A stretch of DNA of 64,000 nucleotides from Prevotella sp. (GTDB lineage: Bacteria; Bacteroidota; Bacteroidia; Bacteroidales; Bacteroidaceae), in contig JAFZIY010000019.1 in the NCBI GenBank assembly GCA_017554105.1, positions 62,001 through 126,000 on the forward strand. The letters are read 5' to 3'. This document shows positions 5,268 to 60,256 of the stretch, piece after piece. Position 1 is the first letter of the stretch. Every line of letters starts with the position of its first letter. The notes below the pieces were generated by a model. It worked only from the letters and a program-made list of their open reading frames with translations, searched no databases and was not told where the DNA came from. Both the position numbers and the translations under genes were made by a program.

Positions 5268-5367
5268 CCCCTCCTAAGTTAGGAGGGGTCAGGGGAGGTC
5301 TGAACAAATAAAGAATACTTTATATACAGACCCCACCCCAACCCCTCCCCTTGAGGGGCGGGGAGTC
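5268..5367. repeat. Two GC-rich palindromic repeats
   Basis: Copy 1 (5268-5305) carries CCCCTCCTAAGTTAGGAGGGG then AGGGGAGGTCTGAAC. Copy 2 (5329-5367) carries GACCCCACCCC, CCCCTCCCC and GGGGCGGGGAGTC. Each has a hairpin core with a C-rich flank. Related copies occur at 5547, 6039, 21253, 21331, 39625, 39724 and seven times in the suf region. Together with the 22-bp array (5378-5509) and a third copy (5547-5588) they fill the 467-bp gap 5206-5672, which holds no other gene. Confidence 0.85.
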
Positions 5368-5546: not shown

Positions 5547-5588
5547 GACTCCCCGCCCCTTTTAGGGGAGGGGCAGGGGTGGGGTGTC
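5547..5588. repeat. GC-rich palindromic repeat, left flank of the DUF559 gene
   Basis: It begins GACTCCCCGCCCC, passes through TTTTAGGGGAGGGGCAGGGG and ends TGGGGTGTC. Its reverse complement matches the copy at 6039-6078 almost throughout, so the pair forms an inverted repeat around the DUF559 gene. Confidence 0.85.
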
Positions 5589-5672: not shown

Positions 5673-6065
5673 ATGCACTACAACAAAGCCAAGGCTAACG
5701 CTGCCGAACAGAAAGACCAACGCAGGACTCTGCGCAGCAATATGACTCCCGCTGAAGCGACACTCTGGCGAGCAATAAAAGGACGCGGTGCTGGTGGATT
5801 GAAGTTCCGTCGTCAACAGGGTATTGGACCGTTTGTTCTTGACTTCTACTGTCCTGAACGGCGGTTGTGTGTTGAGTTAGACGGTAGTTCTCACGACTAC
5901 CGATATGATTACGACGAGCAACGCACTGCCTATCTCCGCGAGCAGGGAATCCGAGTGGTACGCTTCAGCAATGAACAGGTGTTCCATGCTATAAATGATG
6001 TCGTGGATGAGATTGTACGTGTGGCAAGAGAAGATATAGACCCCACCCCAAACCCCTCCCCTTGA
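5673..6065 (+). CDS. DUF559 (endonuclease-like) protein between inverted palindromic repeats
   Basis: 130 aa. The sequence has the DUF559 hallmarks: RRTLRSNMTPAEATLWRAIK, GLKFRRQQGIGPFVLDFYCP, LCVELDGSSHD, and GIRVVRFSNEQV. DUF559 belongs to the PD-(D/E)xK nuclease superfamily and resembles very-short-patch repair endonucleases; the likely metal and catalytic residues are the Asp of VLDFYCP and the Glu-Leu-Asp of CVELDG. No secretion signal. The last codons (PTPNPSP and the TGA stop) are supplied by the GC-rich repeat at 6039-6078, and a second, inverted copy lies 84 bp upstream. It separates two xylan-degradation genes and has no obvious functional link with them. Whether it acts on the repeats is unknown. 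Confidence 0.85.
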   Translation: MHYNKAKANAAEQKDQRRTLRSNMTPAEATLWRAIKGRGAGGLKFRRQQGIGPFVLDFYCPERRLCVELDGSSHDYRYDYDEQRTAYLREQGIRVVRFSNEQVFHAINDVVDEIVRVAREDIDPTPNPSP

Positions 6066-6078
6066 GGGGCGGGGAGTC
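6039..6078. repeat. GC-rich palindromic repeat, right flank of the DUF559 gene
   Basis: It runs GACCCCACCCC through CCCCTCCCC to GGGGCGGGGAGTC. It overlaps the 3' end of the DUF559 gene, encodes its last residues and supplies the stop codon. The remaining 6079-6345 holds no gene, only the promoter-like box before the esterase. Confidence 0.85.
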
Positions 6079-21216: not shown

Positions 21217-21252
21217 CTCTAATATTAATAAAAAGAAAGGTATATTATCTAA

Positions 21253-21369
21253 CCCCACCCCTGCCCCTCCCCTCAAAGGGGCGGGGAAACGTTAGGGATA
21301 CTCTACCTATAGAAAGTAATCACCCCTATTGACTCCCCGCCCCTTTGAGGGGAGGGGTAGGGGTGGGGT
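21253..21369. repeat. Inverted pair of GC-rich palindromic repeats
   Basis: Copy at 21253-21290 (CCCCACCCCTGCCCCTCCCC to GGGGCGGGG) and an inverted copy at 21331-21369 (GACTCCCCGCCCC to GTGGGG), separated by 40 bp. The pair lies just past the 3' end of uxuA and has the same arrangement as the pair flanking the DUF559 gene, but with no gene inside. Confidence 0.85.
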
Positions 21370-37168: not shown

Positions 37169-39625
37169 AGAAAAAGAATTATAATGGCTATGATGATGCT
37201 CGCAGGGGCATTGACGGCAAGTGCCACAAGCCTCACGCTGGGGAAGTGGCAGGTGAAGATGGGTGAAAACTGGATTGAAGCCAGTGTACCCTCGACACTA
37301 ATGGGTGTATTAACTGCCAACGGTATCGAACCGGAGGCACTCACGGCAGAGGACTATGCCAGGATTGACAAGAAACGGTTTGAGAAGAGTTGGACGTATC
37401 GCACGACGTTCAATATGCCAGCGCTGAAGGACGGGGAGCATGTGATACTATGCTTCGATGGTATCTGCTATCGTGCCAATGTGTGGCTCAATGGTCAGCA
37501 GATAGCCAACAGTCAGGAGATGGTGGGTTCCTTCCGCCAGTTTGAGTATGACGTGACAGCCAATATCGGTCAGGAGAACGTGCTTGAGGTGGAGGTGTTC
37601 CGTGCCCAGCCGGGAGATCCCAACATAGGCTTTGCCGACTGGAACCCGCGGCCTGCCGACGAGAGTATGGGCATCTGGCGTGAGGTAAGGGTGAAGACCT
37701 GCGGACCAGTGTCTGTGGCTCATTCTGCCGTACGCTCAAGGGTTAATAGCAAAACGCTCGACGAGGCATGGCTAACCGTTGCGACTGAACTGACAAACCA
37801 CAGCGACAAGCCAGTGTCGGGCGTGGTGGAAGGTACAATAGAGGGTCGTAACTTCGCATATCCCGTGAGTCTCAAAGCCCACGAGAAGCGTGCCTTCGTA
37901 CTGCCCTCGGAGATGCGCTTGGAGCATCCACGCCTCTGGTGGTGTCATAACATGGGTAAGCCTGAACTCTGCAACATGCATTTGGAGTTCGCGGAGAGCG
38001 GGAAGGTGTCGGACACTGAGGACATCCGTTTCGGCATCCGTGAGATACGCAGTTATCTGACAGATGAAGGTCATCGTGTATTCACCCTCAACGGACAGAA
38101 AGTGCTGCTCCGTGGTGCTGGATGGACCGACGATATCTATCTGCGCGACACGCCGGAGACCAACCGTCGACAATTGGAATATGTACGTGACATGAACATG
38201 AACACCGTTCGCCTGGAGGGTTTCTGGGGTACCTCGCAGAATCTCTATGACCTCTGTGACGAACTGGGACTGATGATTCTCGTTGGGTGGAGTTGTCACT
38301 GGGAGTGGGAGGACTACCTCGGTTCACCCACCGAGGAACCCTACGGCGGCATCATAACTCCAGAGCAGATAGCACTCATCGCACAGTCGTTCCAGGACCA
38401 GGTGATGTGGCTACGCTATCATCCCTCGATTATCGGGTGGTTCGTGGGCAGCGACAGAATACCCAAGCCTGAGTTGGAGAAGAGTTACCATGAGTTTCTC
38501 AGTAAGCAGGACGACCGCGACTACCTGATTTCCGCAAAGGGTCTGACAAGTGAGATATCTGGACCGTCGGGTACGAAGATGGAGGGTCCATACGAGTACG
38601 TGGGACCATCTTACTGGTATCTGCCTGAGGCTCCCGGCGGTGCTTTCGGCTTCAACACCGAGACGGGCATAGGTGCTCAGTTGCCTGTGAAGGAGTCGCT
38701 TGAGAAGATGTTGGGTAAACAACTATTCCCCATAGACAACCGTTGGAACGTTCTCTGCACCGCCTCCAATTCGGAGATGAATACTTTAGGGAAACTGAAC
38801 GAGGTGATTCACCACCGTTTCGGCGACGCGAAGAACATTGACGAATACCTCTATCGTGCCGACATGCTAAGTTATGAGAGTACGAAAGCGATGTTCGAGG
38901 GCTTCCGCGCACATTGGCCACACACCACAGGTATCATACAGTGGATGCTGAACGGTGCCCGTCCGGGAATCTACTGGCAACTATACGACTACTACAAGCA
39001 GCCCAATGCTGCCTATTATGGTGTGAAGAAGGCCAATGCGCCCGTGCAGTTGATATACGACTACCATGCCAAGGCTGTCTATGCCGTCAATGAGACACTG
39101 CAATGCGATACGCTTACGGCTTCGATGCAGTTGTTGAAGAATGGAGCAGTAAGCAGCGACAACCGACAGATAGAGGTGGCACCTGGAACGGTGGTTAAGG
39201 TCTTCGACATCGATACCTCGGGTGCGTCCGCCGCTTTCCTCTTCCTCAAACTGAAGGGTAAGGACAATAAGGAGGTGGCAACCAATGAGTATTTCCTGGT
39301 GGCGGAGAATGATACCTACGACTGGGAAAAGACCTCTTGGGTGCACACTCCTATCACGCACTATGCCTCTTATGCCATGCTTGACGGGATGTGCAGCAAG
39401 GATTATCGGCTGAATGTCAAGAAGATGGCAGATGAGAAATATGAGGTGACGGTAAGCAACCCCACGGACAAGGTGGCCTTTATGATTCGTCTCACGGCGA
39501 AGGATGAGAAGGGACAGTTGATTTGTCCTGCCTATTGGTCGGACAACTACCTGACACTGGCTCCTGGCAAGACGCGTACCGTAAGCCTGACTACTCCAGG
39601 CAATAAGAATCCCCGAATCGAATAG
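37166..39625 (+). CDS. Secreted GH2 exo-beta-glucosaminidase/mannosidase-type glycosidase
   Basis: 819 aa, signal peptide (GALTASATS). GH2 sugar-binding and Ig-like domains (WTYRTTFNMP, NVWLNGQQIANSQEMVG, ADESMGIWREV) and a TIM barrel with RGAGWTDDIYLRDTP, GSD (428-430) and GFNTETG with Glu499. The Asp430/Glu499 pair matches the acid/base and nucleophile motifs of CsxA-type exo-beta-D-glucosaminidases, rather than the Glu/Glu pair of beta-galactosidases. Whether the substrate is glucosamine or mannose is not settled. Stop codon is directly followed by a GC-rich repeat. Confidence 0.85.
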   Translation: MRKRIIMAMMMLAGALTASATSLTLGKWQVKMGENWIEASVPSTLMGVLTANGIEPEALTAEDYARIDKKRFEKSWTYRTTFNMPALKDGEHVILCFDGICYRANVWLNGQQIANSQEMVGSFRQFEYDVTANIGQENVLEVEVFRAQPGDPNIGFADWNPRPADESMGIWREVRVKTCGPVSVAHSAVRSRVNSKTLDEAWLTVATELTNHSDKPVSGVVEGTIEGRNFAYPVSLKAHEKRAFVLPSEMRLEHPRLWWCHNMGKPELCNMHLEFAESGKVSDTEDIRFGIREIRSYLTDEGHRVFTLNGQKVLLRGAGWTDDIYLRDTPETNRRQLEYVRDMNMNTVRLEGFWGTSQNLYDLCDELGLMILVGWSCHWEWEDYLGSPTEEPYGGIITPEQIALIAQSFQDQVMWLRYHPSIIGWFVGSDRIPKPELEKSYHEFLSKQDDRDYLISAKGLTSEISGPSGTKMEGPYEYVGPSYWYLPEAPGGAFGFNTETGIGAQLPVKESLEKMLGKQLFPIDNRWNVLCTASNSEMNTLGKLNEVIHHRFGDAKNIDEYLYRADMLSYESTKAMFEGFRAHWPHTTGIIQWMLNGARPGIYWQLYDYYKQPNAAYYGVKKANAPVQLIYDYHAKAVYAVNETLQCDTLTASMQLLKNGAVSSDNRQIEVAPGTVVKVFDIDTSGASAAFLFLKLKGKDNKEVATNEYFLVAENDTYDWEKTSWVHTPITHYASYAMLDGMCSKDYRLNVKKMADEKYEVTVSNPTDKVAFMIRLTAKDEKGQLICPAYWSDNYLTLAPGKTRTVSLTTPGNKNPRIE

Positions 39626-39761
39626 ACCCCACCCCTTCCCCTCCCCTTCAAGGGGCGGGGAGTCGTTGGTGCAGGCTTTATAATTCTTTATCTTGTATTG
39701 TGATTAATGCCCTATCACTGATGTTTCCCCGCCCCTGTGAGGGGAGGGGCAGGGGTGGGGT
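39625..39761. repeat. Inverted pair of GC-rich palindromic repeats
   Basis: Copy at 39625-39664 (GACCCCACCCC to GGGGCGGGGAGTC) and inverted copy at 39724-39761, filling most of the gap between convergent GH2 and GH20 genes. The first copy overlaps the last base of the GH2 stop codon. Confidence 0.85.
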
Positions 39762-56350: not shown

Positions 56351-56381
56351 AACCCACCCTATTTTCCTCCCCAAGGGAGGG
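56351..56381. repeat. GC-rich palindromic repeat between infB and sufB
   Basis: ACCCACCCTATTTTCCTCCC and GGGAGGG, a hairpin with an ACCCACC flank; inverted relative to the copy at 56437. Confidence 0.8.
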
Positions 56382-56405
56382 ATTTATGACAGTATAATAA
56401 AAGAT

Positions 56406-57911
56406 ATGGATACTGAAATCAGCAAGGGAAACCAAGCACCCCTCCCCTCGGGAGGGGATGGAGGTGGGTTGGACTTCGTCCGTCAGGTTGCTGAACAGAA
56501 ATATGAGTTCGGCTTCACGACGGATGTGCATACGGAGATTATAGAGAAGGGGCTGAACGAGGATATCGTTCGGCTCATCTCTGCTAAGAAAGGGGAGCCC
56601 GAGTGGATGCTGGAGTTCCGCCTGAAGGCTTTCCGTCACTGGCAGACTCTGAAACAGCCTACGTGGGGACATGTGCATATACCACCCATCGACTACCAGG
56701 AGATTTCATACTATGCCGACCCAATGGCAAAACCGAAGAAGGAAGGACCGAAGAGCGTTGACGACATCGACCCAGAGTTGATGAAGACCTTCGACAAACT
56801 GGGAATACCCCTTGAGGAGCGTCTCGCCCTTAGCGGTACTGCCGTGGATGCCATCATGGACTCGGTGTCGGTGAAGACCACTTTCAAGGAGAAACTCCGT
56901 GAGAAGGGCATTATCTTCTGCTCCATCGGTGAGGCAATCAAGGAGCATGGCGACCTCGTGAGGCAGTATCTCGGTACTGTGGTGCCATACAAGGATAATT
57001 TCTATGCCGCTCTCAACAGTGCGGTGTTCAGCGACGGCTCTTTCGTTTATATCCCCAAGGGCGTGCGCTCGCCGATGGAACTGAGCAGTTATTTCCGCAT
57101 CAATGCCCGTAATACAGGACAGTTCGAGCGCACTCTAATCATTGCCGACGACGATGCTTACGTCTCTTATCTTGAGGGATGCACAGCACCGATGCGCGAC
57201 GAGAACCAACTGCATGCCGCTATCGTGGAGATAATCGTGAAGGACCGTGCCGAGGTGAAATATTCTACGGTGCAGAACTGGTATCCCGGCGATGAGAATG
57301 GTAAGGGCGGTGTACTCAACCTTGTAACCAAGCGCGGTGACCTGCGCGGTGAAAGTTCGAAACTTTCATGGACACAGGTGGAGACAGGCTCGGCGATAAC
57401 ATGGAAGTATCCGTCGTGCATACTGCGTGGCGATAACTCACAGGCAGAGTTCTACAGCGTGGCTGTCACCAATAACTATCAGGAGGCGGACACGGGAACG
57501 AAGATGATTCACATCGGACGCAACACCCGTTCAACCATAATATCCAAAGGAATATCGGCAGGACACTCACAGAACTCATACCGAGGACTGGTGCGTGCCG
57601 CTTCAACGGCAGACAACGCGCGCAACTACAGTTCGTGCGACTCTCTGCTTCTTGGCAGCGACTGCGGTGCCCACACCTTCCCTTATATGGATGTGCACAA
57701 CGACACTGCCATCTTTGAACACGAGGCAACGACTTCGAAAATCAGTGAGGACCAACTGTTCTATTGCAACCAGCGCGGCATTCCCACCGAGCAGGCGGTA
57801 GGACTCATCGTCAACGGCTATGCCAAGGAAGTACTCAATAAACTCCCGATGGAGTTTGCCGTTGAGGCTCAGAAACTATTGAGCGTATCGCTGGAGGGAA
57901 CGGTAGGATAG
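56406..57911 (+). CDS. sufB: Fe-S cluster assembly scaffold SufB
   Basis: 501 aa, cytosolic; partner of SufC and SufD. Core: [69 protein letters not shown] and [19 protein letters not shown]. The N-terminus has residues 11-22 ([12 protein letters not shown]) translated from a GC-rich palindrome (56437-56470) that is not part of the family; a similar insert sits at the same residue positions in SufD. First gene of sufBCD. Confidence 0.95.
56437..56470. repeat. GC-rich palindromic repeat inside sufB coding sequence
   Basis: CACCCCTCCCCTCGGGAGGG then GATGGAGGTGGGTT; encodes residues 11-22 of SufB in frame. Confidence 0.85.
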
Positions 57912-57915
57912 GATT

Positions 57916-58026
57916 AGCCCCCTAAGTTAGGGGGATGGGGGTCTGAACAGGCGCAGATTCTCTTTATAAACAATTAATGGTCTGATAGACGCTTGTTCAG
58001 ACCCCTAACCCCTAACTTAGGGGGCT
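57916..58026. repeat. Inverted pair of GC-rich palindromic repeats between sufB and sufC
   Basis: Left 57916-57949 (AGCCCCCTAAGTTAGGGGG, ending GGTCTGAACA) and right 57993-58026 (TGTTCAGACCCCTAACCCC, ending GGGGGCT). The right copy also supplies the GGGGG tract 6-10 bases before sufC. Confidence 0.85.
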
Positions 58027-58031
58027 CGAAA

Positions 58032-58784
58032 ATGTTAGAAGTTCGAAACTTACATGCAAAAATAGGAGACAAGGAGATTCTGAAAGGAATCAACTTGACT
58101 ATCAACAATGGCGAGACCCATGCTATCATGGGACCCAACGGGTCGGGTAAGTCAACACTCAGTGCCGTGCTCGTAGGCAATCCGCTCTATGAGGTGACGG
58201 AAGGCGAGGCTTATTTCAACGGCAAGAACCTCTTGGAGATGAAGCCAGAGGACAGGGCTCACGAAGGACTTTTCCTCTCTTTCCAGTATCCTGTGGAGAT
58301 TCCAGGTGTGTCGATGACCAACTTCATGCGTGCCGCAGTGAACGAGAAACGCAAGTATCTCGGACAGGACCCGCTCAGTGCAGCCGATTTCCTTAAGATG
58401 ATGCGTGAAAAGCGTAAGATAGTGGAACTTGATGCTAAACTCTCCAACCGTAGTGTCAACGAGGGATTCAGCGGTGGAGAGAAGAAACGCAACGAGATAT
58501 TCCAGATGGCTATGCTCGAGCCGAAGCTGAGCATTCTCGATGAGACAGACTCTGGTCTTGATGTCGATGCCATGCGCATCGTGGCAGAGGGAGTGAACAA
58601 ACTGTCAACACCAGAGAGTTCATGCATAGTGATAACCCACTACGACCGTCTGCTGGAGATGATACGTCCGCAGTATGTCCATGTGCTCTATCAGGGACGC
58701 ATCGTGAAGACTGCTGGTCCGGAACTGGCAAAGGAGATTCAGGAGCATGGGTATGATTGGTTAAAAAAGGAGCCCACCCCCTGA
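58032..58784 (+). CDS. sufC: Fe-S cluster assembly ATPase SufC
   Basis: 250 aa from the ATG at 58032 (MLEVRNLHAK); a longer in-frame start at 57993 falls in the repeat and is rejected. ABC ATPase: Walker A GPNGSGKST, signature FSGGEKKRNE, Walker B LSILDETDSGLD, and H-loop ITHYDR. The last residues (EPTP) and the TGA stop are encoded by the GC-rich repeat at 58771. It drives SufB/SufD. Confidence 0.96.
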   Translation: MLEVRNLHAKIGDKEILKGINLTINNGETHAIMGPNGSGKSTLSAVLVGNPLYEVTEGEAYFNGKNLLEMKPEDRAHEGLFLSFQYPVEIPGVSMTNFMRAAVNEKRKYLGQDPLSAADFLKMMREKRKIVELDAKLSNRSVNEGFSGGEKKRNEIFQMAMLEPKLSILDETDSGLDVDAMRIVAEGVNKLSTPESSCIVITHYDRLLEMIRPQYVHVLYQGRIVKTAGPELAKEIQEHGYDWLKKEPTP

Positions 58785-58805
58785 CCCCTCCCAAAGGGCG
58801 GGGTG
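58771..58805. repeat. GC-rich palindromic repeat at the 3' end of sufC
   Basis: AGCCCACCCCCTGACCCCTC then CCAAAGGGCGGGGTG; supplies the last sufC codons and the stop. Confidence 0.85.
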
Positions 58806-58849
58806 ATAGAACTCCTGAATAATATTAGAAAGAATCAGACAAGAAGACA

Positions 58850-60256
58850 ATGGACAAAATAGACGCCACCACTAATGAAACTCCCATCCCTTCGGGAGGG
58901 GTTGAGGGTGGGTATCAATACATCGAACTCTACCAGCAGGCACGCCAGATGATTTTCAGTCATTCTGTCGATGTCATGAACGCGCTGCGTGATGAGGCTT
59001 TCAGTGACTTCCAGCGCTTAGGGTTCCCTACGAAGAAGGTGGAGAGGTATAAATACACCGACATCCCATCGCTCTTCGCACCCGACTATGGGCTGAACCT
59101 TAACCGTTATGATATTCCCGTTGACCCTTACGAGGCGTTCCGCTGTGACGTTCCAAGTCTCTCGACACTCCTTTATTTCGTTGTCAACGATGCTTTCTAT
59201 CAGGAAGTGTTGCCCAAGGTATCGCTGCCAGAGGGTGTGATTATCGGCTCGCTCAGGGATAATGCCGACATCGTGAAGACATACTATGGTCGCTTGGCGA
59301 AGACAAGTGAGGATGGCATCACTGCCCTCAACACTATGCTGGCGCAGGACGGACTTCTCGTTTACGTACCACGTGGAGTGCGTGTGGAACGAACCATACA
59401 GGTGATAAACATTTTAAAAGCTCCCTCCCTATTGGGGAGGGCAGGGGGAGAGGCCTTCATGTCCAACCGCCGTGTGCTTATCATAGCGGAGGAAAGTGCC
59501 GAGATGAAACTGCTCTTCTGCGACCACACTGCCGATGACTGCAATTTCCTCACCACTCAGGTCATTGAGGTGTTTGCTGGAGAGAACTCTAATGTGGACC
59601 TCTATTGCATGGAGGAGACACACGCAAAGAACATCCGTCTGAGCAATGTATATGTGCGACAGGAGAGCAACAGCAAGGTGAAGCATAACATTCTGACGCT
59701 GCACAATGGAACCACACGAAACAAACTCGACCTTGTGTTGGCAGGTGATGGTGCAGAATGCCAGTGCAACGGCTGTGTGATTGCTGACAAGCATCAGCAT
59801 GTTGACAATAATACGCTCATCATCCATGAGGCACCGCACTGCACTTCAAACGAACTGTATAAGTATGTCCTCGGACAAAGTGCCACGGGAGCTTTTGCCG
59901 GTCGCGTCTATGTCGCTCACGGAGCACAGAAGACATCATCGCAGATGACCAACCAGAACCTCACCTCAACACGTGAGGCACGCATGTTCACGCAGCCTAT
60001 GCTGGAGATATATGCCGACGACGTGAAGTGCGCACACGGTTCCACCGTAGGACAACTGAACGATGCGGCACTGTTCTATATGCGTCAGCGAGGTATCCCC
60101 GAGAAGGATGCGCGTATGCTGTTGCAAATTGCTTTCGTGCGTGAGGTCATCGACCAGGTGGAACTGACACCCCTGCGCGACCGTCTCCACTACCTCGTGG
60201 AAAAACGATTTAGGGGAGAACTGAGCAAGTGCGAGGGTTGTAGACTGTGCAATTAA
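58850..60256 (+). CDS. sufD: Fe-S cluster assembly protein SufD
   Basis: 468 aa. Core: YKYTDIPSLFAPDYG, LLVYVPRGVRVERTIQV, MSNRRVLIIAEESAEMKL, GTTRNKLDLVLAGDGAEC and the C-terminal HGSTVGQLND, ALFYMRQRGIPEKDAR. Two palindrome-derived inserts: residues 11-21 (TPIPSGGVEGG) and about 191-202 (APSLLGRAGGEA), the second within the core between VINIL and MSNRR. The protein must tolerate both, as it is likely essential. Confidence 0.95.
   Translation: MDKIDATTNETPIPSGGVEGGYQYIELYQQARQMIFSHSVDVMNALRDEAFSDFQRLGFPTKKVERYKYTDIPSLFAPDYGLNLNRYDIPVDPYEAFRCDVPSLSTLLYFVVNDAFYQEVLPKVSLPEGVIIGSLRDNADIVKTYYGRLAKTSEDGITALNTMLAQDGLLVYVPRGVRVERTIQVINILKAPSLLGRAGGEAFMSNRRVLIIAEESAEMKLLFCDHTADDCNFLTTQVIEVFAGENSNVDLYCMEETHAKNIRLSNVYVRQESNSKVKHNILTLHNGTTRNKLDLVLAGDGAECQCNGCVIADKHQHVDNNTLIIHEAPHCTSNELYKYVLGQSATGAFAGRVYVAHGAQKTSSQMTNQNLTSTREARMFTQPMLEIYADDVKCAHGSTVGQLNDAALFYMRQRGIPEKDARMLLQIAFVREVIDQVELTPLRDRLHYLVEKRFRGELSKCEGCRLCN
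58881..58913. repeat. GC-rich palindromic repeat in the sufD N-terminus
   Basis: CTCCCATCCCTTCGGGAGGG then GTTGAGGGTGGGT; encodes residues 11-21 of SufD in frame. Confidence 0.85.
59420..59455. repeat. GC-rich palindromic repeat inside the sufD core
   Basis: GCTCCCTCCCTATTGGGGAG then GGCAGGGGGAGAGGCC; encodes about residues 191-202 of SufD. Confidence 0.8.

Follow-up and report, generated by a model that had tools for sequence, protein, structure and literature searches.

The sufBCD operon of a Prevotella genome, which serves iron–sulphur assembly, has seven palindromes, each rich in C and G, in or beside its three genes, and three of the seven lie in frame within coding sequence. The operon is part of a 64,000-nucleotide stretch of assembly GCA_017554105.1 (contig JAFZIY010000019.1, positions 62,001 to 126,000; herein referred to as the window), of which the suf region examined runs from 56351 to 59455 and comprises sufB and sufC together with the end of the infB–sufB gap and the beginning of sufD. 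We argue that the suf palindromes are probably non-autonomous copies of mobile elements that encode a DUF559 (PF04480) endonuclease-like protein. A linked gene for such a protein lies in the same window (5673–6062, forward strand) and was missed by the preliminary description that reported the palindromes. In what follows, G000 is the window's own genome (3.12 Mb), other G codes are other genomes, L codes are fetched loci, and C denotes a contig.

All seven copies were confirmed in the window sequence, the in-frame ones at the residues originally given for them, and all share one build: a C/T-rich left arm, an A/G-rich right arm and a C/G-rich tail. In the infB–sufB gap, a C-rich tail followed by a hairpin (56351–56382, reverse strand) forms the first arm of an inverted pair across the sufB start codon at 56406; the second copy, a hairpin with the tail GGAGGTGGGT (56438–56470, forward), lies in frame in sufB (56406–57911, forward; 501 amino acids) and encodes SufB residues 11–22. 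The sufB–sufC gap is filled by an inverted pair (57916–58026; arms 57916–57950 and 57992–58026; tail GGGGGTCTGAACAG), and a tail-plus-hairpin copy (58770–58804, reverse) encodes the C terminus of SufC together with its stop codon TGA (EPTP-stop). The sufD gene (58850–60256, forward; 468 amino acids) carries two in-frame palindromes, a hairpin with the tail GGGTGGGT at residues 11–21 (58880–58913, forward; TPIPSGGVEGG) and a hairpin with the tail GGGGGAGAGGC at about residues 191–202 (59420–59454, forward; APSLLGRAGGEA). The 111-base inverted pair in the sufB–sufC gap might fold into a cruciform or RNA hairpin of very large size; a similar pair occupies the same gap in L184 (3116–3223), and at least one arm is found in L146 (3093–3111).

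Judged from the reading frames, the mid-SufD copy is unambiguously within its gene, and no in-frame ATG, GTG or TTG lies between the N-terminal SufD copy and the conserved QYIELYQ. Translation of the SufB copy is likely but not certain, an in-frame TTG directly 3' of the palindrome (codon 22, 56469–56471) being a candidate for the true start. SufB and SufD do carry their N-terminal copies at the same residue positions, as had been remarked; this coincidence would fit a tolerant segment just after the start codon, since an inverted pair straddles the start codon in both genes (56351–56470 across the start of sufB and 58770–58913 across the sufC–sufD junction). The solved SufD structure 1vh4 matches chiefly in the C-terminal half.

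The proposal that these palindromes are insertions is borne out by their distribution among relatives, each species being represented by one genome. The SufB segment is absent from all 20 relatives fetched first. A second comparison covered 80 named SufD loci, with the N terminus of SufB readable in 53 and that of SufD in 77: at the former, L189 is the only locus with a palindrome, a different one, and at the latter other palindrome-coded peptides stand at the same place in six (L118, L135, L160, L168, L189, L192). The mid-SufD site is also occupied by an inverted pair in L118 and by another palindrome in L191. The sufC–sufD junction is a repeated target, with an inverted pair across it in the window, L160 and L192 and with the SufC stop and SufD start codon inside the element. 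In 10 of the 80 loci, sufB, sufC, sufD or a gene identified by eye as sufS contains at least one tailed palindrome that keeps the frame. Because relatives lack the residues in question or have other palindromes at the same sites, the comparison supports insertion over ancestry. That the inserts are instead ancestral or convergent low-complexity loops, as the similar length of some relatives' loops (KATPQNAQRQVP in SufD) might suggest, is exceedingly improbable: the DNA has the hairpin and tail of the family, it occurs in one or a few species per site, and comparison with relatives refutes this explanation for the sites tested. In the related loci L118 to L197, the open frame immediately preceding SufB and SufD holds recurring short repeats of other kinds (translated, for example, as SEEFASA and QWSMVNSQWSM), which perhaps constitute a second repeat family.

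The suf palindromes belong to a high-copy, genus-wide superfamily of hairpins with a C/G-rich tail that often occur as inverted pairs. In a 464-kb sample, consisting of the 64-kb window and 20 evenly spaced 20-kb stretches of the genome, we counted 52 hairpins with a C/T-rich left and an A/G-rich right arm against eight in one first-order Markov shuffle, and 38 of the 52 also pass a tail criterion strict enough to miss, for example, the copies at 56351 and 58770. Across the whole genome, the exact core CCTCCCN{2,5}GGGAGG occurs 60 times (0 for a backward control) and CCTCCCNNNNGGGAGG, with up to two mismatches, 208 times (70 for the control). The exact core is present at least once in 85 of 100 genomes of the genus, in up to 274 copies, and in 68 of 198 genomes of the order, few of which have high numbers. 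A four-run G-quadruplex pattern is found in 14 of the 38 tailed palindromes; the whole 464-kb sample holds only 20 such motifs on both strands.

In-frame copies, counted in the 464-kb sample, are common: 18 of the 38 tailed palindromes stand within recognisable genes, in a frame free of stops, excluding copies upstream of start codons and doubtful frames. Their hosts are SufB, SufD (two), Mfd (an inverted pair), aminopeptidase P, UDP-glucose dehydrogenase (UGD), a dynamin-like GTPase, an RluA-type pseudouridine synthase, valyl-tRNA synthetase (ValRS), a Fur-like protein, a UPF0227 protein, genes of a Mu-like prophage (four copies) and the C termini of an SDR and a patatin-like protein; for 13 of the 18 copies the host assignment was confirmed by Pfam or by homologues, and for five it was made by eye. 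The prophage copies lie together in one region (L079, G000:C29:1–20000) in which the prohead protease alone was confirmed by Pfam. A match in IspD (L080:15972) has no tail and was taken as a chance hairpin. The ValRS insert is missing or different in 29 loci of other species (among these, L228 codes for its own palindrome-like peptide); the same holds for aminopeptidase P in 29 loci, with a decayed-looking insert in L254, and for UGD in 16 readable loci. A second UGD gene in G028 (L313, C36:348400–350300) carries inserts at three separate sites, of which two hold palindromes, in an open frame of 532 amino acids, and one of its inserts occupies the same loop as that in the UGD of the window's genome. 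Insertions absent from orthologues are thus found in each of the proteins compared, namely SufB, SufD, ValRS, aminopeptidase P, UGD and leucyl-tRNA synthetase (LeuRS; see below).

The likeness to Rickettsia palindromic elements (RPEs) drawn in the preliminary description is a fair one, palindromic repeats in frame in conserved genes being the feature common to both and to intragenic repetitive extragenic palindromes (REPs), which one study describes in several species (PMC3733652). What differs here is the Prevotella host, the linked DUF559 gene and the tail, which is C/G-rich (GGGTGGGT, GGGGTGGGGTC, GGGGGTGAGGC and others) instead of the GTAG or CGTC end tag of the families in that study; no RPE sequences were compared.

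Since C- and G-rich hairpins and tails seldom contain stop codons, in-frame inserts are translatable. This freedom from stops follows from base composition, because shuffling the bases of the elements leaves the frames at least as free of stops (on average 5.12 of six frames open against 5.08 in the elements themselves, and all six open in 41% against 9 of 38), and selection for stop-free frames was accordingly rejected as a candidate explanation. Inserts that keep the frame would be translated, rather than skipped, as short Pro/Gly-rich loops (PxPSGGxxGG, PLPxREGxG). Because a stable hairpin within a gene calls to mind bypassing elements and inteins, one could suppose that the inserts never reach the protein, being bypassed by the ribosome or removed by RNA or protein splicing. 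We give this only a slim chance: the tailed palindromes inside the suf genes at these 80 loci leave the reading frame intact, a condition that bypass would not impose, and no splicing domain stands beside DUF559 in the 10 proteins scanned (below).

The connection with DUF559 is visible at the suf locus of a relative, L135, where two palindromes at the sufC–sufD junction bracket a small gene that encodes DUF559 (Pfam, 1.2e-32). A PF04480 search found DUF559 in 61 of the 100 Prevotella genomes, with five copies in the window's genome, one of them in the window. The latter gene ends inside an adjoining palindrome (6038–6074, reverse, tail towards the gene) that supplies its last codons and stop (DPTPNPSP-stop), and two further palindromes lie upstream, one with the tail GACCCCACCCC (5327–5363, reverse) and one with the tail GGGGTGGGGT pointing towards the gene (5551–5585, forward). 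We collected 70 fetched loci (30 as given by the search and 40 chosen by hand, several of them for long open frames), the window and L135, which left 68 distinct loci after removal of four duplicates; the sample is therefore not random. An inverted pair with tails outward surrounds DUF559 in 36 of the 68, and at least one palindrome lies within 350 bp in 65. By comparison, random 350-bp segments of the window's genome have an outward pair in 0.025% of cases and any palindrome in the flank in 5%, and outward pairs occur at 0 of 60 ValRS and aminopeptidase P loci and at 1 of 30 RAYT-like loci.

Palindrome number and DUF559 number also covary across the 100 genomes (Spearman 0.70, p 4e-16, uncorrected for kinship): at least 20 copies are found in none of the 39 genomes without DUF559 and in 35 of the 61 with it. 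Tails are more alike between a DUF559 gene and its nearest relative than in permutations (0.469 against 0.314; 0 of 2000 as high), also when neighbours of at least 70% identity are excluded (0.425; again 0 of 2000). Within the window's genome, several gene-less palindromes share their ends with a gene-bearing element, as miniature inverted-repeat transposable elements do. The right arm and tail of the SufB copy (56438–56470) agree at 20 of 21 bases with a palindrome next to the DUF559 gene at G000:C29:95140, where the kind at the N termini of both SufB and SufD is found; the sufB–sufC gap palindrome has the same hairpin and tail as one beside the gene at G000:C15:93685; and the kind found in two intergenic inverted pairs also stands beside the window's own DUF559. 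These pairs (21251–21369, with no open frame of 120 amino acids across it, and 39624–39761) are gene-less, have their tails outward and belong to the tail family of the window's DUF559. Three palindrome kinds thus have ends in common with a DUF559 element of the same genome.

The form of the palindromes, a hairpin plus tail often arranged as inverted pairs, is also that of REPINs, and REP/REPIN elements of the ordinary sort, moved by a RAYT (TnpA-REP) transposase, would be an obvious source. The window's genome has two Y1 transposase genes, one of them RAYT-like (NF047646, 69.8 bits, below the cut-off of 80), and the correlation of palindrome number with RAYT is weak (rho 0.32, p 0.001; 100 genomes, uncorrected for kinship). 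This source is nevertheless improbable and was disfavoured already by the loci themselves. The genome's RAYT-like gene (L017 1325–2100, G000:C15:248480) stands between inverted pairs of the GTAG repeat GTAGGGGCGAACCCC, which is a separate REP family; GTAG-type repeats are found at 8 of 16 RAYT-like loci examined, several others showing no clear repeat; and 64 of the 100 genomes have no match to this RAYT. C-rich palindromes flank a RAYT-like gene on both sides at 1 of 30 loci of the genus, and there (L092 1094–2154, G038:C30) the gene is apparently nested inside the palindrome pair. RAYT was rejected as the driver on these grounds. A 94-base query from the left arm of L092 gave 68 matches in G038 at E values up to 10. 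An IS200-like transposase gene in the window's genome (L016 1416–2022, G000:C29:322848) lies between CCCAGGGC...GCCCTGGG hairpins, and a TonB-receptor-like frame nearby carries the palindrome-like peptide SPLGGKSGSHR, named by eye.

DUF559 itself can be carried in frame by host genes. The gene and its palindromes are both spanned by open frames of 540–1311 amino acids in an ABC-F ATPase (L364), LeuRS (L366, genome G043), a DegT aminotransferase (L370), an epimerase (L372) and, at the same site in two species (L365, L368), an SF1-type helicase, where the insert follows closely on the GPPGTGKT motif. In other frames it is joined to an amino-acid kinase (L373), a guanylate kinase (L379) and, with hosts named by eye only, a GNAT protein (L346) and agmatine deiminase (L371). 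In the window's own genome it is joined to IspF, lying directly upstream of ispF (L362 440–1360, G000:C29:95140), where an internal start may possibly be used instead. In LeuRS, the site is empty in nine other species, from which DUF559 and its palindromes are absent as a block; the G043 protein (1213 amino acids) retains the other conserved blocks, KMSKS included, and two of the nine (L400, L403) have palindromes of their own, one in a loop also used by G043. A Pfam scan of 10 proteins, the window's DUF559 and nine of the long frames, found DUF559 and host domains only, with no splicing domain.

Homology indicates that DUF559 is a small single-domain nuclease related to Vsr and the EDxHD homing endonucleases, and it is likely to be a cutting enzyme. 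PDB 3hrl, an endonuclease-like protein, matches DUF559 at 1e-36; the alignment with PDB 3r3p, a mobile intron protein that we take to be I-Bth0305I, is weak but still significant (6e-5). Residues E68, D70, G71, H74 and D81 are invariant in 17 sequences. The literature describes EDxHD as a homing endonuclease family with I-Bth0305I as its example (PMC3943268) and assigns one DUF559 gene to it (PMC9403480).

The association extends beyond Prevotella. A plasmid protein search returned 40 DUF559 records, and of ten fetched from among the better-scoring ones, six have tailed C-rich palindromes on both sides, as located by our palindrome finder, not all with tails outward (Sphingomonas, Deinococcus proteolyticus, two Synechocystis and two Pseudanabaena). 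At the Deinococcus NW-56 and Azospirillum loci, a palindrome on one side faces an inverted repeat or hairpin across the gene. A 4.9-kb coding sequence of Pseudanabaena galeata contains DUF559 and its palindromes in frame. The plasmid hosts span Cyanobacteria, Deinococcus and Alphaproteobacteria. Viral contigs searched with the window's DUF559 protein gave no confirmed match, and the literature searched, which left out most subscription journals, yielded no link between DUF559 and palindromes.

Mobilisation of the palindromes by DUF559 is what we infer from this observed association, and several observations weigh against it. No target-site duplication, excision or transposition was seen, and insertion at the sufC–sufD junction seems to have been accompanied by loss of host DNA. 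Tails point inward at 10 of the 68 loci, the window's own DUF559 among them, 19 are one-sided or mixed and three have no palindrome; two of the ten plasmid loci, both Picosynechococcus, have a palindrome on the right only. The random-segment control draws on the window's genome alone, 40 of the fetched loci were picked by hand, and the copy-number correlation has no control for genome relatedness. Nine genomes with DUF559 have 0–1 exact copies and six without it have 11–16, in a pattern that covers one core. An all-pairs Mantel comparison of DUF559 protein and tail is flat (rho 0.04, permutations up to 0.22), leaving the nearest-neighbour comparison as the one positive result, and the mid-SufD palindrome kind was found beside no DUF559 of the window's genome. 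Finally, Caulobacter VsrA, a Vsr-like DUF559 protein, has been proposed as a mismatch-repair enzyme (PMC12907096).

Bracketing and covariation would be explained equally well if something else, such as replication slippage or an unseen transposase, moved the palindromes, and DUF559 homed into palindromes that it recognises and hitch-hiked with them; the RAYT unit apparently nested in the G038 pair implies that such pairs can receive other genes. We consider hitch-hiking unlikely, though a more serious contender than RAYT: palindrome copy number follows DUF559, gene and palindromes are absent as a block from the LeuRS of nine other species, and three palindrome kinds of the window have a DUF559 of their own.

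We hypothesize instead that the full element consists of a C-rich tail and hairpin, the DUF559 gene and an inverted hairpin and tail, and that the palindromes are copies of the element's ends. In the simplest account, the hairpin with its tail would serve as the recognised end, DUF559 would cut at or near the target, and repair or replication would lay in copies of the element with or without the gene. Gene-less copies would spread in trans and persist as inverted pairs or single palindromes; insertions that break a frame would be lost, and those that fit the loops, termini and gene junctions of conserved proteins would be retained.

Such an element would resemble in its working a REPIN–RAYT system in which the nuclease has been exchanged, or an intein that does not splice, and it departs from each in one respect: the genome's RAYT is not flanked by the same repeat, nor on both sides is any of 30 RAYT-like loci of the genus save the apparently nested L092, and no splicing domain was found around the endonuclease in the 10 proteins scanned. 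With REPIN–RAYT it shares tailed hairpins, inverted pairs, high copy number and a linked single-gene nuclease whose close relatives share tails; it differs in that the nuclease is related to Vsr/EDxHD and not an HUH tyrosine transposase, and in that coding genes are among the insertion sites, sometimes with the nuclease domain carried along in frame. The EDxHD homing endonucleases of introns and inteins have in common with it the homology to 3r3p and, as with inteins, in-frame sites in conserved proteins; palindromic ends, high-copy gene-less derivatives and the lack of any splicing domain found set the present system apart, introns not having been searched for. Yeast mitochondrial GC clusters and fungal double-hairpin elements are GC-rich mobile palindromes, some in coding sequence and some with endonuclease genes; they are organellar, unlike the elements here, and are likened by description only.

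On balance, we lean towards a cross-phylum class of mobile element, made up of a Vsr/EDxHD-type DUF559 gene and its cognate tailed palindromes and distinct from transposons, REPIN–RAYT systems and inteins, that may copy itself into genes, stay there as a translated insert, seed up to hundreds of gene-less palindromes per genome and add loops to essential enzymes. Because the palindromes very often stand around a gene resembling a homing endonuclease, the data point to a poorly recognised kind of mobile element hiding inside working proteins. DUF559, by name still a domain of unknown function, would thereby gain a candidate function, and an abundant, unexplained class of C/G-rich bacterial palindromes a candidate enzyme. 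The elements also illustrate how conserved proteins, LeuRS and SufD among them, may naturally gain loops or even an entire nuclease domain, and one small protein with short DNAs would be enough to test where such inserts come from.

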